Positions 4,673 through 44,862 of a stretch of DNA of 54,880 bases are shown here, in pieces; the first letter of the stretch is position 1, and the number at the start of each line of letters is the position of its first letter. The notes beneath the pieces were generated by a model. It was not told the DNA's origin. It saw nothing but the letters and a program-made list of their open reading frames with translations, and searched no databases. The stretch spans positions 1 through 54,880 of IMG/VR virus record IMGVR_UViG_3300025168_000109; one strand, 5' to 3'. This stretch comes from a virus. A program made the translations under genes and the position numbers.

Positions 4673-4675
4673 TAA

Positions 4676-6850: not shown

Positions 6851-6861
6851 AAATAAAAATT

Positions 6862-7254
6862 ATGAGTATACTAACAAAAATATTATCAGGAGGAGCAACA
6901 GAATTAATTAAAGGTGTAGGTGGAGTTATAGATAACTTACACACATCTAAAGAAGAAAAGCTAGAAGCTGAGAAAAAAATAAAAGATATGATCATGGGGT
7001 ACGAAGCAGAAATGCAAAAGCAAGTTACAGAAAGATGGAAAATGGACATGCAATCTGACTCATGGTTATCTAAAAACATACGACCATTAACATTAATATT
7101 TTTAGTAGTATCAACAGTACTATTAGTATTTATTGATGCAGGAGTTATAGCTTTTGATGTTAAAGCTAGCTGGGTTGACTTATTACAGTTGGTTTTAATT
7201 ACTGTAATAGGGGCTTACTTTGGAGGGAGATCTCTAGAGAAAGTTAAAAAGTAG
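6862..7254 (+). CDS. Holin of the 3TM/GTA-holin type
   Basis: 130 residues. An N-terminal amphipathic region (ILSGGATELIKGVGGVIDNL), a charged helical segment (KEEKLEAEKKIKDMIMGYEAEMQ), then NIRPLTLIFLVVSTVLLVFI and a second hydrophobic helix LLQLVLITVIGAYFGGRSLEK. The NIRPLT and YFGGRS(L/I)EK signatures are typical of the holin family found in phages and gene-transfer agents. It would form membrane holes that let the M15 endolysin reach the wall. Lysis genes dispersed among tail genes are common in this phage type. Confidence 0.85.
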   Translation: MSILTKILSGGATELIKGVGGVIDNLHTSKEEKLEAEKKIKDMIMGYEAEMQKQVTERWKMDMQSDSWLSKNIRPLTLIFLVVSTVLLVFIDAGVIAFDVKASWVDLLQLVLITVIGAYFGGRSLEKVKK

Positions 7255-17068: not shown

Positions 17069-17070
17069 AT

Positions 17071-19008: not shown

Positions 19009-19012
19009 AATT

Positions 19013-20386: not shown

Positions 20387-20390
20387 TACT

Positions 20391-22341: not shown

Positions 22342-25300
22342 ATGGCTTTAGACGAAAACAATTTACCTGAAGGCAACGGATTAAAAAGTTCAGCTATAAG
22401 CACTGTCGACACACAAGGCTCAGGACTATCTGTTTCTAACACACTCCAAACACTAACATCTCCAAGACAAGGATCTAGTATAAATCAAGCTGCAGCGAGC
22501 GCAAGCTTTACAAACGATTTAGCTACAGATCCTAGTATATTTTCAGATGGTCTAAGATCTCAAGGATTTCTTGATCCTAATCAAAATCCTGAAATGTATA
22601 AGACTATATATCAGTCTGATGCAGCCAATGCTTGGAATACTTTATTTAATGAAATGCGCACAATGCGTAAGTCAGAAGTTGAAGATGATTTAAGAGGGGT
22701 TCGTATACAACTAGCTGAGTATGAAAACGCTAAAGACAGAGCTGATTCGTTTTATGCTGAAGGACTTGTTAGTAAAGTAGAACATTCTAATATACTAAAA
22801 CAAATAGAAGAAGGACATTTAAGAGGAGGTAAAGATAAATTAGATTTAGTAGATCAACTTATTGATGGTGTAATGGGAGGCTTGTCTCAAGCTTTAACTG
22901 CAGAAGATTATGCTAATGCAGTAGACAGAGCTCAAAAATCTGGACTATTAAAAAGAACAGAAAATATTGAAAAGTCGTATTCTAAAAACACTGATACATA
23001 TCAAAGTTTATTAGAAGAAAAAGAACAGCTTAAAAAAGACATCGAGGAAAGAGAAGAAGAAACAAGGACTGGAGGTTTTGCTAGTTTGTTTTCTGGTGCA
23101 ATAGGAAGAGGAGATGCTTTTGGTGCTCAAGGAATACCACTACCTATTTATGGTGGAGGAGATGTAGAAGAAGATTATGCTATAAGAAGTAAAATAGAAA
23201 AAGCAGGAGGAGCTACTGCGTTAAGCTCGCTGCCAATTTTTAGTAAAGCTTTTGGGCTATCTGATAGTTGGACAGGAGATGAATACTTTCAATATAAAGC
23301 AGCTGAAGACGCTGCAGGTTCTATATCTACATTTGAAGGGCAGGTAGCATCTATCGTAGGTCCTGCTATAATACAGACTTTAGAAAAGCAAGCACAAAAT
23401 AAATATTTTAAAGGAGTTAAAAATCCTTATCTTAGAACAGCATCCGCGTTAACTCAGTTTGCAACAATAGTAGCAGGTAACTTTTGGAGTAGAAATCTTG
23501 AGACTAAAATGGAATCAGGCGATGCTTACTGGCAAAAAGTAGATAAACTAGAAAACGCTTTACAAGAAGACCTTAGAGCTCAAGGAATAAACAGAGAACT
23601 TACAAAATCAGAAAAAAACAATATAGCTATAATGGCTAATGATGGTGTAGGAGATCTTAAGAGAAAGAATATGTGGCTTGGTGGATCAGATGTAATGCAG
23701 TTTGCTTTAACATTTATGAAACTTCCAGGACTATCTAAAGCATTTACAGGAACTACATTTAGAAATATTGCTGGAAGAGAATTATCATCTAGAATGACTG
23801 GTAGATTAGGAATAAATGCTCTTAAGTTTAGTGCAGCTGTTGGAGTATCTAGAGAGTTAGAAGGAATGGAAGAAGGCCTTCAACATAAATGGGTACAAGA
23901 TTATTTAGGTGTTTATGGCGGAGAAACTTCAGGATCTTTTCTAAACAATCAATGGAATTCTATGAAGCGTGCTGGAGGCGACGCTATAGATTATGGTTTA
24001 AATATGTCAGGATTAAAAAATTCAGACCCTGAAATGTATGAAAGCTTAGCATTTAAAACAGCTGTACAGTCTGGTAGGGATATGGCAACTATGATGACTG
24101 GTGGTGGTAGAACTGTGTCTAATTGGGGAGGAGCTAAATCTTTAGTTGAACTAAAACAAGCTATGTCTTTATTAGGTGAGGGTGGAGATAATGTAAATAG
24201 AAAAAGACTTTTTGAAGATAAGAAAAGTTTAATGTATAAGTTTTTCTCACAAGGTAATACATCAAACTTATACGATGCTATATATCGTATGAGTAGAAAG
24301 GTTGGCAGTATGAAAACACCTTTAATGACAAGACAAGAAGCAATAGATGCAATAAACGAAGTACAACAAGCTGAAAAAATATACAATGATGTATTTGATA
24401 ATAAATCTCCTTTAGCTATAAGTGGTTTTGGAATAAACTATGATATAGGAAGACTAGGAGGTAGAGAAGCTTATACAGAAGCAGACAAAAAGAAAGTGTT
24501 TTTAAATGCTTTAGATGTTATAGAAAATGGTAAAAGAAATAAAGAGTTATTAGAAAAGCAACAATCATATAGAGAAGGTAAAGACGAGTCCTTAGACTTA
24601 TATGTTACAGCACTTACAAAAGAAGAGCGCGCTGAGTATGAAGATAAAAATACAACAAAGAAAAGGAAGAAAGAGCTTGAAGATAAATTAACAGCTGAAG
24701 GTGTATCGTTAGAAGAAAAAGAAAAAATTAAAGCTAAAATGGAAGATAGAGGGTTTTCATCTACTCCATACGATCAAGAACTTTTAGAGAATGCAGAAGC
24801 AACTGAAAAAAGGAAAAAAGAAAATGAAGAAATAGCGTCTGAGAAAAAAACTTGGATAGGAAATCCTGATACTAATGATGGGGCGCTTTGGAATATAAGT
24901 GATGTAGAAAAAGTTAAAGCATTAATGGAAGAGCGTGAATCATTAATGAAGAAGAAAGATCTTACTAACGCTGATCTAATGGCTATAGAAGATTTAGAAA
25001 GGCAAGAAAATCAGATATGGTATGAACAAGACTTTGAGTATAAAGCTTTAGAAAGAGGTAGATTGTTAGGATCAACTAAAAAGGCTGCTTTAATACATGG
25101 TATAGGAAGTATTATACAACATATAGAAAAGTATGGATCAAAAGGTCTTAATAAAATACTGCCATCTATATTAGAAAACAATACTAAATTAGATGCAACT
25201 ACAATAAAAGATTTACAAGTACTAGCTAATGAAATTGTAACTAACAGGCAGAAAGTAGCAGACTCTATAAAAGATCTTAAAAAGAAAAGACAAGAGCTTT

Positions 25301-28300
25301 TGTTTGATGCAGAAACTGAAACACAACACACATCATTAACACAACAAGAAAAAGAAGAATTGCTTGAGCTTAGAGAACTAGAAGATGCGGGAACATTAGA
25401 TGAAGCTCAAACAAAAAGACTTGCAAAGTTAGTATCTAGAAGTATAACAGACAAAGCTTTAGATGGTATTACAGAAGAAGTAACAGCGCTAGAAGCAGAA
25501 GAAGCATCTTTATCTGAGACTGCTGATATGTCTGAACAATATATTAGTCGTATAGAATCAAATCCTTCAGATTTCTTAATAAATGATAGCGACTTTGAAG
25601 CAAAAAGCGATGACACAATACTAGAAGAAGCTGCGTTAGAAGCTACTGAAGGTATGGATTATATAAAAGATCAATTAAAAAACATACCAGACTTTGCTGA
25701 TGTAGAAAATGGTCAAAGAATATATAATCAAATAAAAGAAAGAGAAGATATATTTAGAAGAAGAACTGTAGAAGCTGAAGACTCGAGAAAAGACTACTTT
25801 GAAAATATTGCAAACACTTTAAAACTAGCGCTAGAAGACATGTCGTCTTTACTAGAGACTATAAAAGCTAATGCTGCAAATAGAACTGAAGAACAAACTG
25901 AATCAGAAAGAAGAATGTTTCAAGATGCTTTAAGTTCTTTAGGATTAAATTTAGAATTTGAAGTAGACGAAGGAGCTGTTTTTGAAAATGTAGGAAAAGT
26001 AGTTTTAGAAACTGTAGGGCAACCTGCATTAAATGTATTAAAAAATTCTTTATTAACTAATACAGATAAAGTAGGAGTAACATTAGTGCTACAAGGTTTG
26101 TTAAAATCTATATTAGCTGATCAATCTAAAGTAAAAACAAAATTAAAATCAGACTTAAAGAAAATATCTAAAGCGCAAATTAAAGCTTTTACAGATATTA
26201 TAAAAGAAAATTTTGAAAGTAAAGTAGCAACAGACTTTTATTTAGAAAACCCTAAGATAGGTCTTAAAAATGTATTACATCAAATATCTACGTTAAATGA
26301 AGATAAAGATTTAAATAATAGAGACTCTGCATTATGGAAATATGTAGATCATTTAAGCCCACATAAATTATTAGAAGATATAATAAAAGAAGATAGAACA
26401 GGATTAGAAGCTTCTTCTGAAGTTCTTGAACATCTTCTTATGCACCACATATTTCATCTACAAGCTGAAAATCAATTAGATCTATTAAACTCTGATATAA
26501 ATGTAACAGATCAATTAGAGAATGAAAAGTTTGTATTGCAAAACAAAACAATAGAGTTTATCCCAACTAAACAACAATTACAATCTATAAGAGAATTATC
26601 TGTATTTTTAAAATCTGAAATAGCAAATAAAGATACTTTAACTTTAGGTGGGGTATCCTCTTTTTTACAAGGAGCTGCTGGTACAGGTAAAAGTAAAATA
26701 GTATTACCTTGGGCTATACAAACAGCTGGAATACCTAATAGAGCTATTTATGCTTTTGGACATAATCCTAACTCTTCCGCAACTATTAACTCTTCTTTAA
26801 ACTTAATAAAAAATAAAAAAGACGCAAATACTTTAGACAGCTTTTTACAATTAGATGACGCGGTAGCAGAAGACTTAGAAGTTATTATTATAGATGAAGC
26901 TCCTGCATTAAATGATTTACAATATCAAAATGTAGAAAAACAAATAGCACATATAAACGCTCTTAAACACGCAAGTAAAAAACCAGCTATCAAAGTAGTA
27001 ATGCTAGGAGATCAAGCACAATTAACTAATGAAGTAATATCTCCTCTAGACGCGTTTGGAGCTTTTAAAACTATGCATACAGTAATTACTCCTATTACAA
27101 GTATATATAGAAGTGACAATCCAGCTATAGCTAACTTCCAAGATACTTTTAGAAGAAGAAAAGAAGATTTATCTAAAACACAACTAACAGTAAAGTTAAA
27201 CTCATCACATCCTTGGAGACCTGGAGCAATAGGAGTTTATGGAGTAGCAGGAGATTTTAAAGAAAGACTAATACTTAAACTTCAAAACGCATCGCCAAAT
27301 GGAGAACGTCGAGTAATTATAACTAACCCAAATAAAAAAGAAGAATACCAAAGCTTAATTAAAGTAAACAAACTTCAAGATGTAGAAGTAATGTCTTTTA
27401 TAGAAGCACAAGGAGAGACTATAGATGAAGTTTATATGGACATTGTTAGAGATAATATGAATCTCGAAGACTTTAACAAAGCGCTTTACACGGCAACTTC
27501 TAGAGCACAAAATTTAATTGTAGCTACTAATTTAAATATAAAGAATACAATAGATCCACAACTAGATGCTGTACAACAAGGTTTAGGTCTAGAGTTAATG
27601 CAAAGAAGAGAAGAGTTTAAAACTGAAGTTTTAGAAAACTCTAAACTTTTAAGAGAGTTTGATGAACTATCTGACAGAGAAACTATTCACGAGTCAGTAG
27701 AAGAAGCTCTTGAAGAAGAGCCAACAGTAGTAGACGAGTTTATTGATGAAGCAATGTCTGAAGAAGATGAAGCGCGTAACGAAGAGCAAGCAGAAGAGCA
27801 AGATAAAGTACACCCAGAAACTACTAGAGGAGAAGAGTTAGATCAAGACTTAATGCCTGAGCAAGCATATGATGTAGAAGAAGATTTAGGGGGTTACACA
27901 GAAAACAGCTCAGAAGAATTTGATAATAATATAGATGTTTCTGATAAACATGTTTTGTTTTATCCTGAATATGATGCTTTAAGTTCTACTACTATAAGAA
28001 AAGCCACAGTACTTCCTGTTATGTCTGATAGGCCTATATCATTTGTAAAAGGTAGAGCTGTAAGTAGAGACGGTAAAATTATATCAGGAATAGTAGTATT
28101 GCAAGAAGCTAGAGAACAATTGGGAACTAGCACAAGATTCTTTGAGTATGATAATAAAAAAGTATTTAGAAGAATAGCTGTAATAGGAGACAGCAATGAG
28201 ATAGACCAAATGAACTTTTTAACTAAAGCTCAAAAGAAAAGTTTAAAAGACACTTTAAGTACAGGAGTATCAATACCTTTAGGAGAGCTTGGTATACCAG

Positions 28301-31300
28301 GAGATAAGAGTTTAGTATCTGATACAAACAATGCTGTATCTAGAAACAATATAATAACCGGTGTAGCCATTCCAAAGGGTGGAGCTAGAAGGCTTACATA
28401 TAAATATGGGTCCCGTAGAGAAGCTTCTTTTACTTTTAATCAACCTGCTGCTTCTAATTTCTTAAAGCAAAATAAAAAACTTGTAGATAATATATTACAA
28501 AAATTTATTGATTCTTTTTATACTGAGTCCCAGCCAATAACTGATGAACAATTAAAAAATATTAAACAGTCTAGAGTTAAGATATTTAAGAAGAAAGATA
28601 TAAAAGATTTAAATGTGCCTGAAGGATTTAACATTAAATCTGGTAGACCTTATTTAGTTATAAAAGGAGTAGGGAATGAAAACAAAACACAATACATAGC
28701 TTTAACTGCTAGAAGAATATCTAGAAATATAAAAGATGATGTTAAAAATTATTTCCAATATATAGATGCTTTTGGACAAGCTACAGCTAAGATAGAGCAA
28801 TTGTCTCAAGGAGCTCTTAAATTAGGTACAAAAGGCTTTGTAGATTTTATTAGAGGGGCAGATAAAATGGCACAAGACATAGCTACTGGAATAGGTAACG
28901 TTGCTGCTATGGAAGAACTTATAGAGCTAAGAAATGTTGTAAGAGATTTAAGATGGAGCGAAGTAGACACAAACTCAAACGGAAGTATAAGTAAAAAGAC
29001 TCAAGGCGTGGGTCCTGCACAGGCTGCTATGAACAAACTTGCTCAAAGTAATTCTATATTTAGAGTAGAAAGAAGAATAAAAAGAAATGGTAAAAAAGTT
29101 AGAATAGTTACTTCTAAAAGTTTATTATCTTTTTCATCACAAGGTCAAAGTAAAGGTCCTATTACAACTCAGCTTTTAGAAACAGTGTTTAACTCTCAAG
29201 ATGATAAAGGTTATAACCACGTACTACACTTACCTTTAGACATAGACATGTTTAATGATCTAGACTCTTCTGGGACCTCTACAACTGTTAGAACAGCTAA
29301 ACAAAATCACAATGCGGCTTCTAAAGTATTAACAAGCCAGCTTGAAAGTATAGAAGGAACTAAAATTATATTAGGAAATAGTAATGCAGTAGATGAAAAA
29401 AGATCTAAACCTAAAGTAACTACTACTAAAAAGAAAAAGAAAAAGCTAAGAGGTAATATAGGAGATATAAATAACTTAGAAGGTAAAGAGTACAGAGAAA
29501 AATCTGAAGATTTAAAAGGAAGCCTTATAAGTAAAGATGACGCTAACAATCTTATAAAAAGATTATTACCAGATTTAATTGCTACAGACTCTAAAGGTAA
29601 TGAGTACTTAAAACCAGGTAATATAGTATACTTAGACGCTCTTAGAATGCTAGAGCTTACAGAAAGTAAAAATGTTTTAGGTAAATTTATAGACCAAAGA
29701 ATATATCTATTAGAACAAAAAGATGGTATATATGACAATGTAGTACGTCATGAAGTGTTTCATAAAATACTTTCATATTATTTAACAGACTCTGAGCGTA
29801 GAACGTTATTTCAAACTGCAAGAACACAATACAAAATTCCTAAAAGCCACACTAATGCTCAAGTAGAAGAAAGATTAGCTAGAGAGTTTATGAAGTTTAG
29901 AGTTGATGAAAACTCAGTAGTAGCTAGAATAAGAAAGATATTTAAAAAAATATTAAAGTTTTTAGGATTTATAGATAAGAATGCAGACAACATACAAAAA
30001 CTATTTACTAATATAGATAATGGTTATTTTTCAGGAAGTAACATGGTTGGAGATCCTGTAAGCACTAACATGAATTTTGAAAGCTTAACAGAGCAATGGG
30101 AAAGTGTTGAAATATATAGAGAAGCTAGATCTAGATTTATTAAAGGTATGGACTCTTTAATGTCTGAGTATGATGATGGTCAACAAGATATAATTTCTGA
30201 AGTTGACTATGAAAACTCAGAAGTTACAGGCGTTCCTATGGGTAGAGATGAAGCTTTAAACTATTTAGTTGAAAATAACTTTCCTGATTTTGTACAACAA
30301 TTAGAAAGCAAAGGTTTAGGTAATTTAAATGAAGCTCAAAGCAGAATCTACAAAGCATCTAAGTTGTTATCAGATCCTAGAAAAGCTAGAGCAATGTTTA
30401 AAGATGTGTATCAAAGAGACACATTAGATGAAGGATATGAATTAGAAGAAAGTTTACATTTAGACAATGTAAATTTAAGTGATGTTATTAATGACGCTAA
30501 TCTTAAAGATCATTCTAGAAACTTGTCACAATCTGTTATAGAAGTATTAACAGGTATATCATACACTGCATCAAATGGTAAATCTAAAAGATTAAATATA
30601 AAGCATGCTTACTTCCAAGCATTACAATTACTGACTAATACATATGATCCTTCTATAACTAAAATGAGGGCTAACATAAAAAAGAAATCTAAAAATTTAG
30701 GTAACAAGCTAGGCACTGCAGGTAAAGCAGTAGAAGATGCAATTATTAAATTAATAGATGAATCATTTAACACTTTAAATGAAAACAATTTACACCAAAT
30801 AGAAATTGGTAAGGATAGAATAAAAAGAGAAATATTAAACGAACAGTTAAAAAATATTACAGGACGAACTAAAACTGCTACTGCTAAAAGAGATAAAATT
30901 AGACAAAAGATAGACAATTTAGATATATCTGATTTTGAAATACCTGGTAATTATCATTTTGTAAATCAAAATAAATTTATATTTTCTAAAGACTCTAACG
31001 TTATTGCTGCAGATTTGTTACAAGATCTAGCAGGTCAAGAACAATTTTCTACAGTAGCTAGAAAGAAAAATGAATCTTCTGAAGAATTTTATTTCCGTAT
31101 ATACAATGCATTAGATGCAGAAGGTATGGCAATTCCTACAGAAGCTTTAATTGCTTTATATACTAAAGGTAAAGCTACAAGAGACCTTAAAAACTTAATA
31201 GTTAACACAGCAAGTTTAAGAGAAGAAACATTTATGTTGGGTGACTATACCTATGAATGGGATGACAGTACTAAAAGCTCTGTTAAAAAGATAAGATACT

Positions 31301-34300
31301 ACAGACATAAAGAGTTTGGTACAAGAGCTACTGCAAGCTCAGATATAAGAAATTTTATAAACTCTAATCTTAAATCTTTAAAGCAAGCAGCACCAGGATT
31401 ATTAAAGTCTATTAAAAAATCTTCTACTACTAAAGACAAAATGAATATCTTAAATAAGTTTATGTCTCTTATACAGTACCCTGAAGACAAAGTACTTATA
31501 CATAGAAAGTATGCTGAACAAGCTCTTATAAAACTAGAAGGATTTTTACAAAGACTTCCTGATGTAGGTAAAATGAATAAAACAGCTCCTAAAGTAGAGA
31601 GTGAAAAGACCGGTAAAATGGTATACGACACATTTACTATAGATGATTTAGTTAATGATGAAGGATCTCTTTTAGAAGCTCTTGGTAATATGTTAAAAGT
31701 AGAAAACGAAGCTACTAAAGCACATAGTATTAAAAATGTAGAAGGTAAAACTATATATGCATTCCACAATAGTTCTTATGGTGTAGATATAATAAAAGAT
31801 TTATCAGACAATAAAAAGCCTGAGCACTTACAAGGAGAGTTTTATGGTAATAACATATTTGTTAATGGGCAAAGTGATATACGTGAAATGCAAGACTGGG
31901 ATGGTATTATAGATAGAAAACGTAAAAACATTCCTATTACATATACAGCTGAAGGAGAAAAGCAATGGTTAGATAGAAACTTTAATTATTATTTTTTAGC
32001 AGGGCTTAAAGAAGCTAATCAAGGATTATACTATACTCAACAATTAACAACAGTATCTGATAAATCATCTCCTAAATCAGTGCAGGTAAAAGCATTAAAT
32101 CCACAACAAATTAAAGAAGCGGTTACAACTATGGTAGAACAATACCATAAAAAATCACTTAAAAAGTCTTTAGTTTTTCCAAAGATTATTGAGAGCACTA
32201 GTTTAACAAAAGGTCAAAAAGTTTCTAGAATTATACAAGAGTTAGAAACTAGAACTGATGCTATGTTAGCTAAGATACAATCAGAGAATATTCTTAAAAA
32301 TATGGACTACTCTGCAGCGGTGGACCAGTTAAACTTTAGCAAGCTATCTAAAGAAAAACAATTGAGAGCTTTAGTAAACACGTTTGTATCTAACTATGCA
32401 GTTAACTCTTTCTTTTTAAATCAACTAGTTTTAGGAGACACTGCTAACTTTAAAGATTCATATGATGTAGTTAAAAGAATGTCTATTGCTTTTGCGCCTG
32501 GATACAAAGGGTTTGTAAATCCTTTATTAGGTATGAAGAAAAACTTTAGAGTTGCAGTAATGGAGGACCCACAAGCTACTGCTTTTGATTTCTTATCGCC
32601 TAAAGAAAGAACAGCTTTAGTAAGAGACTTAAAAGATTTAGGATTAGATAGTCCTATAGATTTAGCTGACGGTCAAGGATTTGTTTTACCTAGTAGATTA
32701 AAAGATTTAAGAAGAGGTTTTGGAGGAGGTTTTAATCCTGGAACAGTTATGAAACCTGTTTATTATGGAATAGATTCTACAGGTAAGCCTACCGCGCTTA
32801 AATATTCTACAACAGTATTGACAGAAAGCTTAGTTGAAAATCACCCGGGTCTTAAAGCTCTTAAAAAACAAATGGAACTAGCAGAGGTTGATGAACTAGT
32901 ATTTAAGTCTGGAGTAAAAGTAGGAGCCCCAAACACTTTGTCTAAACCAGGTTATCCTAAAATCAATCCTAACACTAACTTTACAACTAGACCTAAAATA
33001 GAAGCTGAATCTATATTAACTTTAGATAATGCAAGCCTTAGATTACAGTTAGATCCTACAGCTGATCCTAATGCTTTAGTTTCAAATCCGACGCAATTAG
33101 CTTATATGATCAACACTAACGGATTAAACAGTGAGGCAGCTGCTGATTACTATGAGTCAATGGCAGAGTTAATTGATTCTGGTACAAAAGATTTCTTAAT
33201 GGAACTAGGATTAATGAATAGTACAGGAGCGGTTAAGAAGTTCTTAAATCTAAATCAGTCTAGAAGGAATGCGATAGAGAAAAAGATAAGAGCTAAAATA
33301 ATAAATGCAGCTGACACAACTGAGTCTGCACATAAAGAGGCTGAAGTTTTATCCGCTAAAGATGAAAATGGGAACCCTGCAGTTACTATTAATTTCCCTG
33401 CTGTAGTAAATAAAATATACCAACATTTAGCATCATCTTTAAGTAAAGCTACAATAAAAATAAAATTCCCTGGGTCTAAGTTAATATTACAAAGTGCTTA
33501 TGGAGCTACTATAGAAGATCCTGTAACCGGTAAACAAAGACCTTTAAAACATATTACAGCTGATAGACCATATGCTGAAGTTTTAATGCCTAGAATACAT
33601 TCAGACAAATTTAAACTAGGTGATAGTATTTATGATAACCACATGATGGGTTTCCGTATACCTTCTACAGAATTACACTCTTCTGTATCTTTAAAAGTAG
33701 TAGGATTTTATGATGCACATGACACTAATGTTATTATAGCGCCTAAAGAACTTGTTACAATACACGGGTCTGATTTTGATGTTGATTCATTATTTGTAAT
33801 TAGAAAAGGACATACTAGTGATAAATCTAAAAGCGGTGTTTCTTTGTATACAAATGACAACACTGGGTTAAAAACTAATAATAAAGACCTTTTATTAACT
33901 AATAATGAGGTAATACCTTCTTCAGATAATTTTATAACTAGTGTACGAGATGAGGTTAATTATTATCAAAACCAAATTAGAGATTTAAATTCTGTAATGA
34001 AGTTAGCAGAAGACAATACAAATAACAGAGAAATTAAAAAAGATCTTAAAAAGACTTTAGAAGTTCTTAAAAGAGTAGAAAAGGCAGCAGTTAAAAATAA
34101 AATGTTAGACACTTACTTAGATGTTATAGAAGATCCTAAAAATAGAGAAACTATATTGTCTCCTATTACTATGACTAATTTAAAGGGTAGAGTTAAAAAT
34201 GGTAAAGATCTAGACAATTCTGTATTTGGAGTAATATCTGAAGATATGGGACTCCCTATATTAGATAACCATTCTCAATTGTATGGCACAAAAGATTTAA

Positions 34301-37300
34301 CAAATCCTTTAGATGAAATGTACATGCATCAAAGTAATCAACAAGGATCTAAACTAACCGGTTCAGGAGCAAACTCAATGAAAGCTCTTGCATATATGAT
34401 GGAAGCGTCTGAAGGAAGTCAACCATCTGTATTAGTAGATAAAAAAACACAAGAAGGTGAGATATTACCATTTGAATTTACAATAGATGGTATAACATAT
34501 AGTAGATTAAATAGATATGAAAAATTAAGAGGAGATAAAAACAGTAAGCATACAATTTGGCAAACAATGGACTCTGTGACTAATGCTGCAATTGATAACT
34601 CTAAAGAACAAATTTTAAACATCTTAAATTTAAATCAAGCTACTGCTTCTATGTTTTATGTTATGATCGGTACAGGAGTACCTTTAAAAACAGCTGTTAG
34701 AATTATGTTACAACCTGCAGTTAAAGAAGCAGCTAGAGTAAATCCTAAACAGTTCAGTAAAGGAGCTTCTATAGTTAGAAAACAAATATTAGACAAATTA
34801 GGGAGTGCAAAGTCAAATACTCCTGACTCAATACAAAAAGGAATTGAGCAAACTAAACTAAATACAAAGAGTTTAAAGAAAGGTATCCTTGCAACTAGCT
34901 CTAGGTTTAATAAATCATTTGATAAACAACTTGGAAGCACAGCTGATTCTATATTCCAATTAGTAATATTAGACTTACTATCTCCTGAAGGAGCTAAAAA
35001 GGGCCTTAATAAGTATGGTAACGATTTAGCAACAGTAGCATCTACTTTACAAGTATTACAATCATTACCTTCTAACCACGAAGATTTAACAGGTTTAATA
35101 GACAACATGCAAGATATGTTTGCAGAAGACAGTTCTTTTGGATTTGATCTATCTAATATACTTAATTCTTTACCGCATTTACAAAGAGCAAAAGATACTG
35201 CAGAAATATTATACAGTATTACTTCTGAAATATTACATGTAAATAATCCTAGCTTAAAAGAATTTGCTGCAGGTGTAAACACAATGATAGGAAACACATC
35301 ATCATCTGAAGATAGAATAGGTGGTAACGAAAGAAACAAAAAAATAAGAGAAGAGTTTGTAAGATTTATAGCGTCTATAGTATCTGATACTAAAAGTATA
35401 CCGCCTATGGATGTCAAACTAGGACAAGTTTCTACTACAGTAGCAGGTACGCAAGCGTTATCTCATAGACTAGCTCTTCAGATTACTGATATGAAGAAAA
35501 AGAATACTACAAACGCATTCTTAAGTAGAGTAGCAGTAAATAGAGATAAAAGAGGTATACAGTATATAAGTTCTAATGCTGCAGGCATTACTCAAGAAGA
35601 ACTTGTAGAAGTATACGCAGACTTTAATAGATTAGATCCTCAATTGCAAGAAGATATATTACAATATTCTATAGCTAAAGAAGGTATGTTATTTGCAGCT
35701 AGTAATATAACTATGATGATAGAACCAAAAAGATTTGCTGGATACGATCAAAGAAGAGCTAAGATTTTAGCTGAGCTTATAGAAGATCCTAAAAAATTAG
35801 AGGTCCTTAGAAATAGATTTACTGTACAATACGCTCTTACTAATCCTAACCTATTAGCTTCTACAGGTAATAAAAAAATATCAGAAACTATAGTAGAAGA
35901 AAATGGTAGTAAGTATGGAACTAGAAAAGATAGATTATCTACAGGAGAAATTGTATTCTATGATTTAAAAATAAATAATGATTTAGGAGAGGGACCTTTG
36001 TTCTTATCTAATCCTAATTATAATCAAGTATATATAAGAGTACACCAAGATGTATTAGACCAAGATACAAAAGGATTTAGTTACTATCAAGTAGTAGCTA
36101 AAGGATCAGCATCTACTAGTTTTTATACAGTAGATCAGTTAGATTTAAATACTGAATACAATTTACAAACACACTTCCCTAAAAATGCGTTAGTTAGAGC
36201 TGTTGAAGATGGATCAGTAAATGAGTTAATTTTATATAAGCAAATAAAAGGTTTAGAAAAAGGAGATAAAATGGTTCTTAGAGCTCATGATGATGTATTA
36301 AGAGCAGACGGAATAGAAGTTATAATATCTGATGTATCTGAAGAAAAACAAAAAGATAAAATAACAGAGATAACAACTACAGTAAGTAAAATTACTTTTG
36401 AAGAGCAGAGAACAGACATGACTCCTTTTATAGAATTACCTGAGATAGGATTAGATGATACTAAGGAAGAGCCTGCAATGCAAAAAATATCTGATGCGCA
36501 AACTATAAGTGAAGAAGCTGCTAACATTATAGTATCTAGATTAGAAAGAGTTTTTGGATTTAAAGCTAAGGTTATAAATAGACCAGATCTAGAATGGGCC
36601 GGTAAATTTGTAGCTGATGTTCCTATTATAAATGTAGCATACATGAGAGCGGATACTGCTTTTCATGAGTTTGCTCACCCGTGGGTAACAGCTATCTTTA
36701 TGAGAAATAAACCATTATTTAATAAGTTAAAACTAGAGCTACAATCTAACTTAGAAGGTCAAGCTATACTAGCTAAAGTAAAACAAAGATACCCTAACTT
36801 AAAAGGTGATGAATTCTTTAAAGAAGCTATTGTAACAGCAATTGGAGAGTATTCAGCAGGTATGATTGATGAGCAAGGTAAAGGTTTAGTAGACGCAATA
36901 TTTGAGCTGCTAAAAAGAATAGGTACTATGATAAAAAAATTATGGAATTCTAATGCCATAATTACTCCTGAAGAGTTAACAAATATGGACCTAAGAGGAC
37001 TAGCTTTATTATTAGCAGAAACAGATGCTCGATTAGAAACTAATATAACAGAGTTTAAAAATCAACCTAAAATAGTAACTAAACAAAACTTCTTAAAAAG
37101 ATTACAAGGTGAAGGAGTTATAAGCCCGGGGCAGGTAAATGGATATTATGCTATTATGGATATAGTTCCAGGTACTACAGAAAGAAGACCAGATCTATTT
37201 AACAAGCATGCTGAAATGGTAGCGCAATATGAACAAGACTATCCAGGATTAATAAGAAGAGTTGGAAATGATGTAGTATTTGATTTTGAGGTTCCTGTAG

Positions 37301-40300
37301 AAGAGTTTAGCGCTAATGCAGAGTACCAAGTTATAGATAATGACCCCATAACAGATGAAAAAGGATTGGATAAAATAGTTGATGAAGATACAATTAAATA
37401 TTTAGAGAATGCTAGAGATGTTGAAAATGTAAGACTCTCAGATGATGAAGCTAATTACCAAGGTAACAGCGGTGTTTATAAAAGACTTACTCATTTTGTT
37501 AAAACAGGAGTTTTAGGACAATCTACAGATACAGTTGCTTCTGAATATGCTGCTAAAAAAGTATTTGAAAGAAATAAAAGAAACATTGAAACAGGAACTA
37601 TATTAATAGAAAACAAGCCGTTTACATATAACCAACTAGTAGATAGATTCCAAAGAAAAGCTAACAATTCAGCAGCTAGAGGTAGAGCAGTGCATAAACT
37701 AATGGAGTGGTTAGTAACTAAAGATGATAGAGTTTTAAAAGATTTAAGAGAGATACAAAGAGAAAAACCTGATCAAGATGCTATAACAGATGCATCATTA
37801 AAATGGGTAGAACAAGTAGGAGAAGGAGTTTTAAGAAAAATAGGATATACAGATACTGATAAAATGAAAGCAGAACTAATGCTGCACAGTCCTATATTAA
37901 GTATAGCTACACAAATTGATGGTTTAATACAACATGAAGATGGTACTTTAACAATGGTAGATTGGAAGTCTGGTGGATATTTCTTAAACGATAGATCTAC
38001 TGCGCAAATGATGAGATATTCTAACGGTACTACAAACGATGTGTCAGATAGTAAACTAAATAAAGCAATGTTAGAACTAACCTTAAGAGCTATTATGGTT
38101 AAAGAACATCAGCCTAATGCTAAATTTAGACAGATTATGGTGCATCATTTAGAAAAATCTAATCCATTTAAACAACCGTTTGAAGTGCATGTAAAAGATT
38201 ACTTAAAAATTATATCTAATTATTTACAAGCTGAAAAACCAGAAGAATTTAAAGCTTTAGAAGAAAAAGGTTTATTAGATGCTAATAATTACATATCTCA
38301 AGACATGAGAAATAATGCTGCTTTAGACAAGTATTCTCATCAACCTTTAGAAGCACAAGTAGAAGGACTAGAAAAAGATATAGAAATACTAAGAACTAAA
38401 ATAACTACTCCAGGAATGTCTAATGATTTAAAAGCGGATAAAGATCTATTAGAAGCTTTAACTACAGCATATCTAGAGCTTACTAAAACATCTAAAGAAA
38501 CGTTAAATTCTGAAGGTAAATTAGGAGACTTTAAAGCATGGGCAAGTTCTATATATAATATAAACAGTCCTAGACTGCAAGCATTTAATAAAATATTTAG
38601 AAGAGCATCTCAAAAATCTCAAAACAAAATAGAAAACGAGAAACAAATTGCTGAAAAACTATTTAAAGATGTTAGAGATGAATTTATGAAAAAAAATCCT
38701 GCAGTTAAAATAACAGGCCTAGCAACTTTAGGAGCTAGATCTGGATTTGATTACAAAGGTTTATATGATTTTGCTTATGAAGAAAAATTAGACGGTGTTC
38801 AAACTCCGGGAGTATACATGATCAGTTTAGAAGATGCTAAAACTAAATATGATAAAGGAGAATTAACAGATGCTCAGTATAAACTAGTAAAACATTTAAG
38901 AGAAACTTGGAATGCAAATTGGTCAGAGTTAATGAATAAAAAAATGGAATCTGGTAATCCTTATTCTAAGATTATAGGAATGCATAATGTAGACAACACT
39001 GTTATTGAAGGTAAACTACATCCTAACTTTATGCCAAGACTTCCTCTAGAAAGTGCAGAAGCATACGAAAGATACAGAGGTGAAGGATTTATTAATAGAC
39101 AAGTTAAAGGTACTGGTCAAGTTATAAAAAACTTTGCAGCTAACACATTCTCTCTATTTATAGAGCAAAATTACTATGGTCAAAACGATAGTATTAACTC
39201 TCATATACCTGTTAGGTTTATGGGTTCTACCGGTATTATAGCAGATCAAGTACATTCATTTAACTTAGAAAGAATGCATTATGATTTTACAGCTAATCTA
39301 ATGCGTAAACAAGAAATGGATTTTGTAGTAGCTTTAGGAGATGGATTAAAAAGTTATTATAATACAATGAAAGATTTAAAAGGTAATGATGATAAAGGGT
39401 GGAAAAACTATGAGAAATTCATGGAAAACTTTATTATTAATTCTATAATGCAAGAAAGAACTGCAGGTAGAAATAACCATTGGTCTTCTAAACAATATAA
39501 TATTGTTAATCCTTTTTATGATCCAAATAAACCTACTAGTCCTTACAACAAGCAAAGCTTCCAGTTTAGTTTATTTAAATTAATGATGGCAGTTAAGCAT
39601 ATAACTACCGGTAAAGCTTTATGGTTTAAATTTATTGGAGGTACATTTAATGGGGCTATTATTTTAATGTATACTGCAATGAAAGCAGTGCAGGGATCTG
39701 CAGCTAAAAGATTAGGATATGATCCAGGAGTTATAGATGTAACTACAAGCCAACTTTTATGGGCAGGTAAAGAGGTTGGTAAATACTTTGGAGATCAAAT
39801 ATTAAGATCGTTTAGTAATGATCCTTCTAAAAACAAATTACACAATCTATTAAAAAGATTTAAATATTTACCAGATAATTATGATTACGCCGTAGATCAA
39901 TCAGACATGATGAATCTTAAGAATCCTACATTAACATATGATAAATTATTCTTTTTCCATGCTATACATGAAGAGTGGGGGCATGCATTACTTTTAGCAG
40001 CGCAAATGAAAAATATTAAAATGGCAGACGGATCATCTATATGGGACAGTTATGATAATGAAGGTAATTTTATGAAAGTTAAAAATGGAAAAGCTAACGT
40101 TAGAGGTGTAATAACAGATCCAAGCGGAGTTAAAAGGGTTATTGGAGAGCTTACAGAAGATGAGATAAACAAGATGCTAAAAATGTCTACTGATATACAT
40201 GGAGCGTATAGAACTAGTGAAAGAACAGTACTAGAAAGTACCGCGGTAGGTGTTTGGGCAATGCAGTTTAAGAAATATTTACCTGCGCTATTGATTCAGG

Positions 40301-40842
40301 AAATGGAGTCAAGAAAAGATGATGTGTACATGGGTAAATATGAAGCATTAACTGATGAGAAAGGTAATAAAATTAAAAGTGAAGTTGAAGTAGATGGTCA
40401 AATGGTTGAAATGGATACTATGGATTGGGTTACTTGGCAACATGAAGGTAGAGCTAAACTTTTATTAAAGTTTATAGCTTCTATGAAAGGAGGTCAGTAT
40501 ACTAATTACAAGTATTCTAATTTAAATGACAGAGATAAATATGATTTACTTGGTATATTATCTAAATTCTCTGCATTTGCTTTAATGGGGCTTGCAATGT
40601 CAACTATGGATGATGATGATTATCCAGAACCACTAATGCAAAGAATGGAGTACTTACAAAAAGATGCTTTACAAGGGTTAATGCCTAGCGAGCTCTTAAG
40701 AACACTTAAGAATCCATTTGCAGTTATAGCACACGCTAATAGTATAATTGAAACTGACTTTAGTATAAGTGCTCAAAGAAAGAATATTCCTTTCCTATCT
40801 ATAGGAGCGGAGTTAGAAAGGTATGGCATGATTGAAAGGTAA
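22342..40842 (+). CDS. Giant 6166-aa polyvalent protein: SF1 helicase, two zincins, crAss-like RNA polymerase, RecB-like nuclease
   Basis: A single uninterrupted frame of 18.5 kb. Order by residue: helical N-terminus with hydrophobic/amphipathic patches (1-600); coiled coils (about 700-1250); SF1 helicase (about 1410-1750); acidic linker (about 1785-1870); zincin motif HEVFH (2470-2474); RNA polymerase core with ADGQG (3442-3446), FKSGVKVG and DFDVD (3811-3815); second zincin motif HEFAH (4775-4779); PD-(D/E)XK nuclease (H5118, D5193, D5207, K5209); and a long C-terminal region. In crAss-like phages the polymerase with the DFDxD motif is packaged and ejected to transcribe early genes. I infer the same here. 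Last gene of the late operon, as expected for a virion protein. The individual module boundaries are estimates; it may be cut by its own peptidase domains. Confidence 0.9.
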   Translation: MALDENNLPEGNGLKSSAISTVDTQGSGLSVSNTLQTLTSPRQGSSINQAAASASFTNDLATDPSIFSDGLRSQGFLDPNQNPEMYKTIYQSDAANAWNTLFNEMRTMRKSEVEDDLRGVRIQLAEYENAKDRADSFYAEGLVSKVEHSNILKQIEEGHLRGGKDKLDLVDQLIDGVMGGLSQALTAEDYANAVDRAQKSGLLKRTENIEKSYSKNTDTYQSLLEEKEQLKKDIEEREEETRTGGFASLFSGAIGRGDAFGAQGIPLPIYGGGDVEEDYAIRSKIEKAGGATALSSLPIFSKAFGLSDSWTGDEYFQYKAAEDAAGSISTFEGQVASIVGPAIIQTLEKQAQNKYFKGVKNPYLRTASALTQFATIVAGNFWSRNLETKMESGDAYWQKVDKLENALQEDLRAQGINRELTKSEKNNIAIMANDGVGDLKRKNMWLGGSDVMQFALTFMKLPGLSKAFTGTTFRNIAGRELSSRMTGRLGINALKFSAAVGVSRELEGMEEGLQHKWVQDYLGVYGGETSGSFLNNQWNSMKRAGGDAIDYGLNMSGLKNSDPEMYESLAFKTAVQSGRDMATMMTGGGRTVSNWGGAKSLVELKQAMSLLGEGGDNVNRKRLFEDKKSLMYKFFSQGNTSNLYDAIYRMSRKVGSMKTPLMTRQEAIDAINEVQQAEKIYNDVFDNKSPLAISGFGINYDIGRLGGREAYTEADKKKVFLNALDVIENGKRNKELLEKQQSYREGKDESLDLYVTALTKEERAEYEDKNTTKKRKKELEDKLTAEGVSLEEKEKIKAKMEDRGFSSTPYDQELLENAEATEKRKKENEEIASEKKTWIGNPDTNDGALWNISDVEKVKALMEERESLMKKKDLTNADLMAIEDLERQENQIWYEQDFEYKALERGRLLGSTKKAALIHGIGSIIQHIEKYGSKGLNKILPSILENNTKLDATTIKDLQVLANEIVTNRQKVADSIKDLKKKRQELLFDAETETQHTSLTQQEKEELLELRELEDAGTLDEAQTKRLAKLVSRSITDKALDGITEEVTALEAEEASLSETADMSEQYISRIESNPSDFLINDSDFEAKSDDTILEEAALEATEGMDYIKDQLKNIPDFADVENGQRIYNQIKEREDIFRRRTVEAEDSRKDYFENIANTLKLALEDMSSLLETIKANAANRTEEQTESERRMFQDALSSLGLNLEFEVDEGAVFENVGKVVLETVGQPALNVLKNSLLTNTDKVGVTLVLQGLLKSILADQSKVKTKLKSDLKKISKAQIKAFTDIIKENFESKVATDFYLENPKIGLKNVLHQISTLNEDKDLNNRDSALWKYVDHLSPHKLLEDIIKEDRTGLEASSEVLEHLLMHHIFHLQAENQLDLLNSDINVTDQLENEKFVLQNKTIEFIPTKQQLQSIRELSVFLKSEIANKDTLTLGGVSSFLQGAAGTGKSKIVLPWAIQTAGIPNRAIYAFGHNPNSSATINSSLNLIKNKKDANTLDSFLQLDDAVAEDLEVIIIDEAPALNDLQYQNVEKQIAHINALKHASKKPAIKVVMLGDQAQLTNEVISPLDAFGAFKTMHTVITPITSIYRSDNPAIANFQDTFRRRKEDLSKTQLTVKLNSSHPWRPGAIGVYGVAGDFKERLILKLQNASPNGERRVIITNPNKKEEYQSLIKVNKLQDVEVMSFIEAQGETIDEVYMDIVRDNMNLEDFNKALYTATSRAQNLIVATNLNIKNTIDPQLDAVQQGLGLELMQRREEFKTEVLENSKLLREFDELSDRETIHESVEEALEEEPTVVDEFIDEAMSEEDEARNEEQAEEQDKVHPETTRGEELDQDLMPEQAYDVEEDLGGYTENSSEEFDNNIDVSDKHVLFYPEYDALSSTTIRKATVLPVMSDRPISFVKGRAVSRDGKIISGIVVLQEAREQLGTSTRFFEYDNKKVFRRIAVIGDSNEIDQMNFLTKAQKKSLKDTLSTGVSIPLGELGIPGDKSLVSDTNNAVSRNNIITGVAIPKGGARRLTYKYGSRREASFTFNQPAASNFLKQNKKLVDNILQKFIDSFYTESQPITDEQLKNIKQSRVKIFKKKDIKDLNVPEGFNIKSGRPYLVIKGVGNENKTQYIALTARRISRNIKDDVKNYFQYIDAFGQATAKIEQLSQGALKLGTKGFVDFIRGADKMAQDIATGIGNVAAMEELIELRNVVRDLRWSEVDTNSNGSISKKTQGVGPAQAAMNKLAQSNSIFRVERRIKRNGKKVRIVTSKSLLSFSSQGQSKGPITTQLLETVFNSQDDKGYNHVLHLPLDIDMFNDLDSSGTSTTVRTAKQNHNAASKVLTSQLESIEGTKIILGNSNAVDEKRSKPKVTTTKKKKKKLRGNIGDINNLEGKEYREKSEDLKGSLISKDDANNLIKRLLPDLIATDSKGNEYLKPGNIVYLDALRMLELTESKNVLGKFIDQRIYLLEQKDGIYDNVVRHEVFHKILSYYLTDSERRTLFQTARTQYKIPKSHTNAQVEERLAREFMKFRVDENSVVARIRKIFKKILKFLGFIDKNADNIQKLFTNIDNGYFSGSNMVGDPVSTNMNFESLTEQWESVEIYREARSRFIKGMDSLMSEYDDGQQDIISEVDYENSEVTGVPMGRDEALNYLVENNFPDFVQQLESKGLGNLNEAQSRIYKASKLLSDPRKARAMFKDVYQRDTLDEGYELEESLHLDNVNLSDVINDANLKDHSRNLSQSVIEVLTGISYTASNGKSKRLNIKHAYFQALQLLTNTYDPSITKMRANIKKKSKNLGNKLGTAGKAVEDAIIKLIDESFNTLNENNLHQIEIGKDRIKREILNEQLKNITGRTKTATAKRDKIRQKIDNLDISDFEIPGNYHFVNQNKFIFSKDSNVIAADLLQDLAGQEQFSTVARKKNESSEEFYFRIYNALDAEGMAIPTEALIALYTKGKATRDLKNLIVNTASLREETFMLGDYTYEWDDSTKSSVKKIRYYRHKEFGTRATASSDIRNFINSNLKSLKQAAPGLLKSIKKSSTTKDKMNILNKFMSLIQYPEDKVLIHRKYAEQALIKLEGFLQRLPDVGKMNKTAPKVESEKTGKMVYDTFTIDDLVNDEGSLLEALGNMLKVENEATKAHSIKNVEGKTIYAFHNSSYGVDIIKDLSDNKKPEHLQGEFYGNNIFVNGQSDIREMQDWDGIIDRKRKNIPITYTAEGEKQWLDRNFNYYFLAGLKEANQGLYYTQQLTTVSDKSSPKSVQVKALNPQQIKEAVTTMVEQYHKKSLKKSLVFPKIIESTSLTKGQKVSRIIQELETRTDAMLAKIQSENILKNMDYSAAVDQLNFSKLSKEKQLRALVNTFVSNYAVNSFFLNQLVLGDTANFKDSYDVVKRMSIAFAPGYKGFVNPLLGMKKNFRVAVMEDPQATAFDFLSPKERTALVRDLKDLGLDSPIDLADGQGFVLPSRLKDLRRGFGGGFNPGTVMKPVYYGIDSTGKPTALKYSTTVLTESLVENHPGLKALKKQMELAEVDELVFKSGVKVGAPNTLSKPGYPKINPNTNFTTRPKIEAESILTLDNASLRLQLDPTADPNALVSNPTQLAYMINTNGLNSEAAADYYESMAELIDSGTKDFLMELGLMNSTGAVKKFLNLNQSRRNAIEKKIRAKIINAADTTESAHKEAEVLSAKDENGNPAVTINFPAVVNKIYQHLASSLSKATIKIKFPGSKLILQSAYGATIEDPVTGKQRPLKHITADRPYAEVLMPRIHSDKFKLGDSIYDNHMMGFRIPSTELHSSVSLKVVGFYDAHDTNVIIAPKELVTIHGSDFDVDSLFVIRKGHTSDKSKSGVSLYTNDNTGLKTNNKDLLLTNNEVIPSSDNFITSVRDEVNYYQNQIRDLNSVMKLAEDNTNNREIKKDLKKTLEVLKRVEKAAVKNKMLDTYLDVIEDPKNRETILSPITMTNLKGRVKNGKDLDNSVFGVISEDMGLPILDNHSQLYGTKDLTNPLDEMYMHQSNQQGSKLTGSGANSMKALAYMMEASEGSQPSVLVDKKTQEGEILPFEFTIDGITYSRLNRYEKLRGDKNSKHTIWQTMDSVTNAAIDNSKEQILNILNLNQATASMFYVMIGTGVPLKTAVRIMLQPAVKEAARVNPKQFSKGASIVRKQILDKLGSAKSNTPDSIQKGIEQTKLNTKSLKKGILATSSRFNKSFDKQLGSTADSIFQLVILDLLSPEGAKKGLNKYGNDLATVASTLQVLQSLPSNHEDLTGLIDNMQDMFAEDSSFGFDLSNILNSLPHLQRAKDTAEILYSITSEILHVNNPSLKEFAAGVNTMIGNTSSSEDRIGGNERNKKIREEFVRFIASIVSDTKSIPPMDVKLGQVSTTVAGTQALSHRLALQITDMKKKNTTNAFLSRVAVNRDKRGIQYISSNAAGITQEELVEVYADFNRLDPQLQEDILQYSIAKEGMLFAASNITMMIEPKRFAGYDQRRAKILAELIEDPKKLEVLRNRFTVQYALTNPNLLASTGNKKISETIVEENGSKYGTRKDRLSTGEIVFYDLKINNDLGEGPLFLSNPNYNQVYIRVHQDVLDQDTKGFSYYQVVAKGSASTSFYTVDQLDLNTEYNLQTHFPKNALVRAVEDGSVNELILYKQIKGLEKGDKMVLRAHDDVLRADGIEVIISDVSEEKQKDKITEITTTVSKITFEEQRTDMTPFIELPEIGLDDTKEEPAMQKISDAQTISEEAANIIVSRLERVFGFKAKVINRPDLEWAGKFVADVPIINVAYMRADTAFHEFAHPWVTAIFMRNKPLFNKLKLELQSNLEGQAILAKVKQRYPNLKGDEFFKEAIVTAIGEYSAGMIDEQGKGLVDAIFELLKRIGTMIKKLWNSNAIITPEELTNMDLRGLALLLAETDARLETNITEFKNQPKIVTKQNFLKRLQGEGVISPGQVNGYYAIMDIVPGTTERRPDLFNKHAEMVAQYEQDYPGLIRRVGNDVVFDFEVPVEEFSANAEYQVIDNDPITDEKGLDKIVDEDTIKYLENARDVENVRLSDDEANYQGNSGVYKRLTHFVKTGVLGQSTDTVASEYAAKKVFERNKRNIETGTILIENKPFTYNQLVDRFQRKANNSAARGRAVHKLMEWLVTKDDRVLKDLREIQREKPDQDAITDASLKWVEQVGEGVLRKIGYTDTDKMKAELMLHSPILSIATQIDGLIQHEDGTLTMVDWKSGGYFLNDRSTAQMMRYSNGTTNDVSDSKLNKAMLELTLRAIMVKEHQPNAKFRQIMVHHLEKSNPFKQPFEVHVKDYLKIISNYLQAEKPEEFKALEEKGLLDANNYISQDMRNNAALDKYSHQPLEAQVEGLEKDIEILRTKITTPGMSNDLKADKDLLEALTTAYLELTKTSKETLNSEGKLGDFKAWASSIYNINSPRLQAFNKIFRRASQKSQNKIENEKQIAEKLFKDVRDEFMKKNPAVKITGLATLGARSGFDYKGLYDFAYEEKLDGVQTPGVYMISLEDAKTKYDKGELTDAQYKLVKHLRETWNANWSELMNKKMESGNPYSKIIGMHNVDNTVIEGKLHPNFMPRLPLESAEAYERYRGEGFINRQVKGTGQVIKNFAANTFSLFIEQNYYGQNDSINSHIPVRFMGSTGIIADQVHSFNLERMHYDFTANLMRKQEMDFVVALGDGLKSYYNTMKDLKGNDDKGWKNYEKFMENFIINSIMQERTAGRNNHWSSKQYNIVNPFYDPNKPTSPYNKQSFQFSLFKLMMAVKHITTGKALWFKFIGGTFNGAIILMYTAMKAVQGSAAKRLGYDPGVIDVTTSQLLWAGKEVGKYFGDQILRSFSNDPSKNKLHNLLKRFKYLPDNYDYAVDQSDMMNLKNPTLTYDKLFFFHAIHEEWGHALLLAAQMKNIKMADGSSIWDSYDNEGNFMKVKNGKANVRGVITDPSGVKRVIGELTEDEINKMLKMSTDIHGAYRTSERTVLESTAVGVWAMQFKKYLPALLIQEMESRKDDVYMGKYEALTDEKGNKIKSEVEVDGQMVEMDTMDWVTWQHEGRAKLLLKFIASMKGGQYTNYKYSNLNDRDKYDLLGILSKFSAFALMGLAMSTMDDDDYPEPLMQRMEYLQKDALQGLMPSELLRTLKNPFAVIAHANSIIETDFSISAQRKNIPFLSIGAELERYGMIER
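26560..27560 (+). other. SF1 helicase module of the giant protein
   Basis: Walker A GAAGTGKS begins at residue 1444, Walker B IIIDEAP at 1515, motif III GDQAQL at 1556, SIYRSDNPAI as motif IV, and motif VI YTATSRAQNL at 1716. The set fits the SF1B (RecD2/Dda/Pif1-like) group, which translocates 5'-3' on ssDNA. In an ejected protein it could help pull in or open the genome. Confidence 0.85.
29650..29930 (+). other. Zincin-like metallopeptidase motif 1 (HEVFH)
   Basis: HEVFH at residues 2470-2474 follows a helix (IYDNVVR), and a downstream VEERLAREF gives a candidate third ligand Glu. This is the layout of zincin metallopeptidases. It could act in self-processing, in cutting host proteins, or be inactive. 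Confidence 0.65.
32480..34400 (+). other. RNA polymerase catalytic core (double-psi beta-barrel motifs)
   Basis: Three blocks typical of crAss-like virion RNA polymerase appear in order. ADGQGF is at residue 3442. Then come KPVYYG and VDELVFKSGVKVG (about 3514-3527), with lysines where the first barrel has its catalytic lysines. Finally RIPSTELHSSVSLKVVGFYD leads to the metal-binding triad DFDVD at 3811-3815. The three aspartates would hold the catalytic Mg2+, as in cellular and YonO/crAss-type enzymes. Confidence 0.85.
36620..36880 (+). other. Zincin-like metallopeptidase motif 2 (HEFAH)
   Basis: HEFAH at residues 4775-4779, with the downstream helix FFKEAIVTAIGE giving a candidate third ligand. 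It is separate from the HEVFH motif 2300 residues earlier and shares little sequence with it outside the motif, so it is not an obvious duplication. Confidence 0.65.
37560..38150 (+). other. PD-(D/E)XK (RecB/Cas4-like) nuclease module
   Basis: GRAVHKLME (H5118), ATQIDGLI (D5193), then VDWKSG (D5207, K5209), and a helix LNKAMLELTLRAIMV at the expected place of the QxxxY helix. This is the RecB-family order. The QxxxY residues themselves are not conserved. Confidence 0.75.
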
Positions 40843-44843: not shown

Positions 44844-44862
44844 AATTTTTGGTTTAATTGAT

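Follow-up and report, generated by a model that had tools for sequence, protein, structure and literature searches.

A single open reading frame in a 54.9-kb fragment from an uncultured phage (IMG/VR record IMGVR_UViG_3300025168_000109; the whole 54,880 nucleotides are called the window here) encodes a 6166-residue protein that is the known crassvirus transcription block, usually two or three neighbouring virion genes, in a fused and rearranged form; relatives divide it among two to four genes. We place a probability of roughly 0.6 on the whole account developed below, in which this block is virion cargo that would be ejected into the host, with terminal disulfides linking the separate proteins of split relatives and peptide bonds doing the same for the window's chain. 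The protein is known here from its gene alone, from which the identities and order of the modules, their catalytic motifs, the reality of the frame, the fusions and fissions among relatives and the distribution of cysteines can be read.

The human gut virome is dominated by crassviruses. These phages must push enzymes of about 700 kDa per set, together with their DNA, through a narrow tail, and the fused chain of one lineage and the paired terminal cysteines of others both point to covalently continuous threading. If this is true, separate proteins could be joined reversibly by such a link and delivered across membranes.

The reading frame and its modules

The frame spans positions 22342-40842 on the plus strand, and its 6166 open codons specify a product of 694 kDa without a single cysteine. 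The initial annotation described a frame open over about 18.5 kb that holds five enzymatic modules, and this description stands, since the coding signal is uniform throughout and every motif lies at the residue that had been named, with its catalytic residues intact. Given the base composition of the window, a frame this long would stay open by chance with a probability of about 10^-225. Codon usage in frame 0 agrees with that of the neighbouring genes in 12 of 12 segments of 500 codons, whereas the other two frames disagree. The features needed for the discussion are as follows.

10473..15884, plus strand: crassvirus muzzle protein, a Crassvirales marker (Pfam crAss_MUZ 1e-30, crAss_MUZ_C 1.1e-6)
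15884..22322, plus strand: four cysteine-free open reading frames (394, 645, 457 and 643 aa) in the position of the crassvirus cargo genes gp45/gp46
22342..26481, plus strand: N-terminal region, residues 1-1380, weakly conserved
26485..27564, plus strand: SF1 helicase, residues 1382-1741, with Walker A GAAGTGKS at 1444, DEAP box, GDQAQ and a conserved Arg
27565..29625, plus strand: junction J1, residues 1742-2428, variable; a gene break in G012, G013, G019, G021 and G026
29626..30138, plus strand: zincin 1, residues 2429-2599, HEVFH at 2470 and a downstream Glu
32344..34737, plus strand: RNA polymerase core, residues 3335-4132, DFDVD at 3811
34855..36360, plus strand: conserved post-polymerase region, residues 4172-4673 ("post" HMM, 23 open reading frames including that of the window)
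36361..36588, plus strand: junction J2, residues 4674-4749; a gene boundary in G001, G002 and most other Crassvirales
36589..37014, plus strand: zincin 2, residues 4750-4891, HEFAH at 4775 and a downstream Glu
37552..38118, plus strand: PD-(D/E)XK nuclease of the RecB/Cas4 type, residues 5071-5259, with H5118, D5193, D5207 and K5209
38179..40731, plus strand: C-terminal module, residues 5280-6130, homologous to the C-terminus of phi14:2 gp65 and of Suoliviridae protein B

It is very improbable that the long frame results from an assembly or sequencing error that fused two genes. Such an error might be suspected because two genes that meet at J2 take the place of the single frame in the sister genomes G001 and G002, but the coding signal runs uniformly through J2, and the cysteine pair of the split form is missing from the window, as a true fusion predicts. 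Moreover, single chains of 5,470-6,679 aa occur in at least seven other records that were assembled independently (G004, G005, G008, G010, G014, G018 and G020). The single-chain relatives and the uniform coding signal together rule out the artefact that the initial annotation had raised as a concern. G009 likewise has one open reading frame once two frame disruptions are allowed for. In G009 (L018/L096) the C-terminal module runs on without a gap in other frames, and the apparent end at 5570 aa is a frame disruption rather than a gene boundary.

The profile of the polymerase core has a sole match in the PDB, 6VR4 (phi14:2 gp66), at an E value of 6.9e-60, in agreement with the crAss-like RNA polymerase with DFDVD that had been proposed. 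Structure prediction had been suggested as a check on the DPBB fold, and the AlphaFold2 model of the core (pLDDT 74.5, pTM 0.75) matches 6VR4 in Foldseek at 3.6e-24 as well as the DPBB polymerase QDE-1, so that the refuting outcome named there, a polymerase region without a DPBB match, did not occur. Conserved segments flank the core (about 3335-4132) on either side.

The other enzymatic modules have conserved motifs as well. The helicase matches Pfam AAA_30 (3.6e-8 over 1432-1608), Viral_helicase1 (2.5e-5) and, weakly, UvrD_C_2; its motifs are conserved in an alignment of 16 sequences, and the PDB matches of its profile include Pif1, RecD and Dda. Both zincins carry the motif expected of active metallopeptidases, HExxH with Glu as the third ligand. 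In zincin 1 the H, E and H are invariant among 17 aligned sequences and the downstream Glu is present in more than 90%, whereas in zincin 2 all four residues are invariant among eight. Zincin 1 is homologous to the zincins of Suoliviridae protein A (E 1e-14 to 1e-20), and searches of PDB sequences with the zincin profiles gave only chance-level matches. The nuclease matches Pfam PDDEXK_1 at 4.3e-5. Its alignment of 19 sequences has invariant D143 and K159, with H68 and D157 at 90% or more (alignment columns), and its model weakly matches Cas4-family, MGME1 and AdnA nucleases.

The ends of the chain also have counterparts. One part of the N-terminal region resembles the N-terminus of Suoliviridae protein A from cr118_1, since the N-terminal HMM matches residues 337-601 of cr118_gp14 (E 9.7e-7), and it matches G002 strongly. 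An AlphaFold2 model of residues 5066-6166 (pLDDT 73.1, pTM 0.65) finds crassvirus RNAP-associated proteins in BFVD, including S0A048, the 1421-aa gp65 of phi14:2 (E 8.7e-15). In J1, there is an acidic stretch at 1806-1871 and a Lys-rich stretch at 2331-2413.

The transcription block among crassviruses

The gene order of the window, with a structural block followed by giant transcription genes and then a replication block on the opposite strand, matches that of the other crassviruses compared. The four open reading frames upstream of the giant gene might encode further cargo, as their position suggests. Single-sequence pattern searches of viral contigs with the polymerase, helicase and muzzle protein returned nothing or one distant match, a tblastn search of named phages with the first 2853 residues gave no match, and relatives were recovered by alignment-based search. 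In the polymerase tree, the window and 22 IMG/VR records form one clade (SH-aLRT 100), separate from the Suoliviridae, Steigviridae and Intestiviridae representatives in a tree built without named Crevaviridae, zeta or epsilon members. This clade appears to be an undescribed deep crassvirus lineage in which the helicase precedes zincin 1.

Two other loci in the window deserve mention. On the minus strand, at 43665-46035, an AAA ATPase (phrog_1297) adjoins a metallopeptidase/VWA-like protein (Pfam DUF2201), and annotations hint at the same pair in other crassviruses. At 69-1508, a 479-aa open reading frame has 32 cysteines, many of them paired seven apart with a repeat every 26 residues, and adjoins tail-fibre-like genes that have no cysteine.

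When the architecture of relatives is read with one profile HMM per module, the order within the clade is constant: N-terminus, SF1 helicase, J1, zincin 1, polymerase, J2, zincin 2, J3, nuclease and C-terminal module. All clade members profiled in their upstream part have the helicase. Breaks at J2 occur in the sister genomes G001 and G002 and also in G006, G017 and G023; G013 is broken at J1, G019, G021 and G026 are broken at both J1 and J2, and G025 is broken at J3. Splits in the clade are thus confined to three inter-module junctions, and the parsimony minimum is five changes for J2, including one on an Intestiviridae-type branch beyond the clade, and three for J1. These fusions and fissions mark natural module boundaries, which might be useful for structural work. 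In most other crassviruses examined, the first gene encodes zincin 1 and the polymerase, and the next encodes zincin 2, the nuclease and the C-terminal module with varying completeness. It is this module order, together with the split forms found across relatives, that identifies the window's gene as a fused and rearranged version of a known cassette. Some blocks are disrupted in other ways. In the clade members G015 (L024) and G022 (L031), many in-frame stops interrupt the block; frames of 4,400 aa or more open when TGA is taken as sense, which makes recoding and/or introns likely.

The fusion has several precedents. Giant multidomain transcription proteins of crassviruses, some with PD-(D/E)XK domains, have been described (PMC7886860), and a review cites crAss-like RNAP genes of "up to ~6000 aa" (PMC10136315). 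The Suoliviridae proteins A and B (cr118_1 gp14/gp15, cr50_1, cr55_1 and cr4_1) resemble the window in that zincin 1 and the polymerase share a chain of 4.5-4.9k residues, to which cr118 and cr50 add an SF1 helicase, so joining helicase, zincin and polymerase on one chain is not new. In these two phages, however, the helicase terminates protein A rather than preceding zincin 1, and the Suoliviridae block occupies two genes, with zincin 2 and/or PD-(D/E)XK and the C-terminal module on protein B and a cysteine pair at the C-terminus of A and the N-terminus of B. The zincin-polymerase-helicase giants at 11055-25895 of L002 (YP_010110531.1) and 11094-25418 of L003 bear the public names "exonuclease V" and "DNA helicase", and their polymerase is left unannotated.

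The gp67-gp66-gp65 set of Cellulophaga phage phi14:2 shares with the window the polymerase core and the gp65-homologous C-terminal module, but it consists of three genes in which no SF1 helicase was found. In the Steigviridae phage crAss001, gp47, gp50 and gp49 make up the same cargo set but are three genes on two strands. The initial annotation contrasted the chain with the phi14:2 polymerase of about 2180 residues. The window's chain is indeed larger, but the difference was overstated because gp66 taken alone is an unfair comparison; the fair figures are 5398 aa for the phi14:2 set, 6102 aa for the crAss001 set and 6166 aa for the window. The Intestiviridae-type RNAP giants (cr11_1 gp66, cr271_1 gp48 and the IMG/VR proteins L079, L086 and L089) are chains of 4.4-5.6k residues, and the latter three also carry the C-terminal module, but unlike the window none gives a helicase or zincin profile match. 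In L079 (5642 aa), polymerase and C-terminal module have been fused independently, and this chain also has no cysteine.

Beyond crassviruses, gp50 of phage N4 is likewise a giant cysteine-free single chain; it is ejected, as the window's protein would be, and has a fused zincin (PMC5512222). However, it is a T7-like single-subunit polymerase without DPBB fold or homology to the window's protein, whose core instead matches the 6VR4/QDE-1 DPBB polymerases. The initial annotation pointed out a likeness to polyvalent proteins, which are delivered and combine zincins with numerous other enzymatic domains in a single chain (PMC5512222). The window's protein has two zincins and several enzymes and may be delivered as well. 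It has a transcription core and lies in a Crassvirales gene context, and other typical effector domains were not found.

Cysteines at protein ends

The complete absence of cysteine from the chain, and a rule for its placement in relatives, escaped the initial annotation. About 65 cysteines would be expected in 6166 residues, as the rest of the window's genes have a mean of 10.6 per 1000 residues. Split members of the clade have a cysteine within the last one to six residues of the upstream protein and another at residue 2-6 of the downstream protein at 15 of 15 junctions, where random placement of the same cysteines predicts 0.002 such pairs, and they have few cysteines away from the junction ends.

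Across the Crassvirales, both terminal cysteines are present at 63 of 88 automatically called junctions. Most of the other 25 (22) fall in genes that are frame-disrupted or stop-recoded (G009, G015, G022, G024, L060 and L069), which alignments confirm in G009 and L069 and which is deduced in the rest. Cases in G009 and L069 were accordingly rejected as junctions without cysteines, being frame disruptions within one gene. The remaining three comprise two with unrelated upstream open reading frames (L046) and the first junction of G012, which has neither cysteine. Outer ends behave differently from interior ones: none of 71 trailing C-termini has a cysteine, and for six of the seven leading N-termini that seem to have one, the preceding open reading frame ends in cysteine. 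The seventh, L075, groups with the Steigviridae, whose third subunit lies elsewhere.

The virion proteins of two cultured phages follow the pattern exactly. In phi14:2, where cysteines occur only at interior ends, gp67 has its sole cysteine as the last residue (-1), gp66 has cysteines at 3 and -2, and gp65 has one at 3. In crAss001, gp47 has a sole cysteine at -3 of 2341 residues, gp50 has cysteines at 5, 1334 and -9, and gp49 has one at 5. A cause at the nucleotide level, such as overlapping codons or translational coupling, was considered and is ruled out by the varying positions and by crAss001 gp47, which lies on the opposite strand, as do the leading subunits of tikkala and cr116, with the C-terminal cysteine kept. 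The sequence around the N-terminal cysteine is of two or more unrelated kinds (MACPNKN-like and MACKIFR-like). No description of this terminal-cysteine rule was found in the literature searched, which mostly excluded subscription papers, and an earlier mention is possible.

Avoidance of cysteine is not absolute among crassvirus cargo proteins, as several internal cysteines occur in gut relatives of the Intestiviridae and Steigviridae, including 23 in L086 and 15 in cr271 gp48. In the window phage, avoidance extends beyond the giant chain, since the fibre-region open reading frames (2267-7254) and those in the cargo position (15884-22322) are also free of cysteine. The 6393-aa chain of G010 (L097/L019) has an intein-like insert at residues of about 1257-1540, inside the helicase Walker A (GLAG/TGKT), with a CLSGD start, a VHN end and an HNH-like segment; this insert accounts for three of the five cysteines of the chain.

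Proposed delivery of the cargo and competing explanations

The terminal cysteines of split relatives and the absence of cysteine from the fusion suggest that the cargo travels as one covalent train. We consider it slightly better than an even bet that crassviruses eject their giant transcription cargo in this way, disulfide-coupled head to tail when it is split, and that in the window phage and several relatives the train has become a single cysteine-free protein; this is a joint estimate for the covalent train, the terminal disulfides, their cytoplasmic reduction and the cysteine-free fusion. The packaged chain would pass N-terminus first through the tail and the envelope as a thread, and would refold in the cytoplasm to transcribe early genes. 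There, the SF1 helicase might act on the incoming DNA and the nuclease could act on DNA ends. A thread without cysteines would be safe from stray disulfides, a reason also put forward for the N4 vRNAP. In a split block, the C-terminal cysteine of one protein and the N-terminal cysteine of the next would be joined by a disulfide between the two proteins, holding the cargo in one covalent train until the reducing host cytoplasm frees the working enzymes. In the window phage, peptide bonds would give the same continuity, so that cysteines would not be needed.

Several published observations bear on this proposal. The crAss001 proteins gp47, gp49 and gp50 are virion cargo, with detection by mass spectrometry on record, and need to unfold in part on their way through the tail, while inter-subunit disulfides of the same virion lie elsewhere than in the cargo (PMC10172136); no report was found of a gel showing the cargo in a linked state. 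In phi14:2, gp66 is the virion RNAP that transcribes early genes, according to the citation in PMC7886860. N4-type vRNAPs have no cysteines (none in the 3500 residues of N4 gp50 by our recount), which the authors attribute to passage through the tail and periplasm (PMC3715699, PMC3915230 and PMC2784036). The initial annotation envisaged a genome-entry machine that would pull in, transcribe, defend and process. Genome entry is a plausible role, and the crAss-like virion RNAP fused to helicase, zincins and nuclease is most likely ejected cargo, but its proposed defensive role drew no support from domain searches of the chain, which found neither a host target nor an anti-defence domain.

That last result also makes it improbable that the chain is mainly a polyvalent counter-defence effector whose nuclease and proteases are directed at the host. 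The domain mix is indeed like that of polyvalent proteins (PMC5512222), and an ART-PolyVal domain is present in one protein B of the Suoliviridae, but conservation along the chain is highest in the RNAP and in the gp65-like C-terminus, and the gene sits in the position of the transcription block. Rather more credible, though still doubtful, is that the terminal cysteines are not bonded across proteins and instead bind metal, make contacts during assembly or form redox links within one protein. Thiols have many uses, and disulfides in the cargo are themselves deduced. However, these cysteines occur only at interior ends and always in pairs, in varying positions and at least two unrelated types of N-terminal sequence, and both vanish when the genes fuse; furthermore, gp67 and gp65, with one cysteine each, could not form an intramolecular link between their ends.

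Somewhat less doubtful, yet still tentative, is the proposal that the chain is a self-cleaving polyprotein, in which the zincins would cut J1 and J2 at virion maturation or after entry to yield the separate proteins of relatives. In split genes, each zincin is the first domain past the break, with HExxH at residue 106-149 for zincin 1 and 149-256 for zincin 2. J1 contains long polar linkers, and zincin processing of polyvalent proteins has been proposed (PMC5512222). Conversely, the zincin motifs are intact in the fully split G019 and G021, where there is nothing to separate, while the fused G005 has lost zincin 2, which is likewise missing from the split G001. Processing of J1 and J2 by the zincins is thus possible but would not be their only purpose. 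Self-cleavage would also be compatible with delivery as a covalent train if it occurred as a later, intracellular step. Thioredoxin-family proteins are encoded by some crassviruses, at 1879-2124 of L113 and 14396-14665 of L115, and might be of interest if cargo disulfides need to be reduced upon entry.
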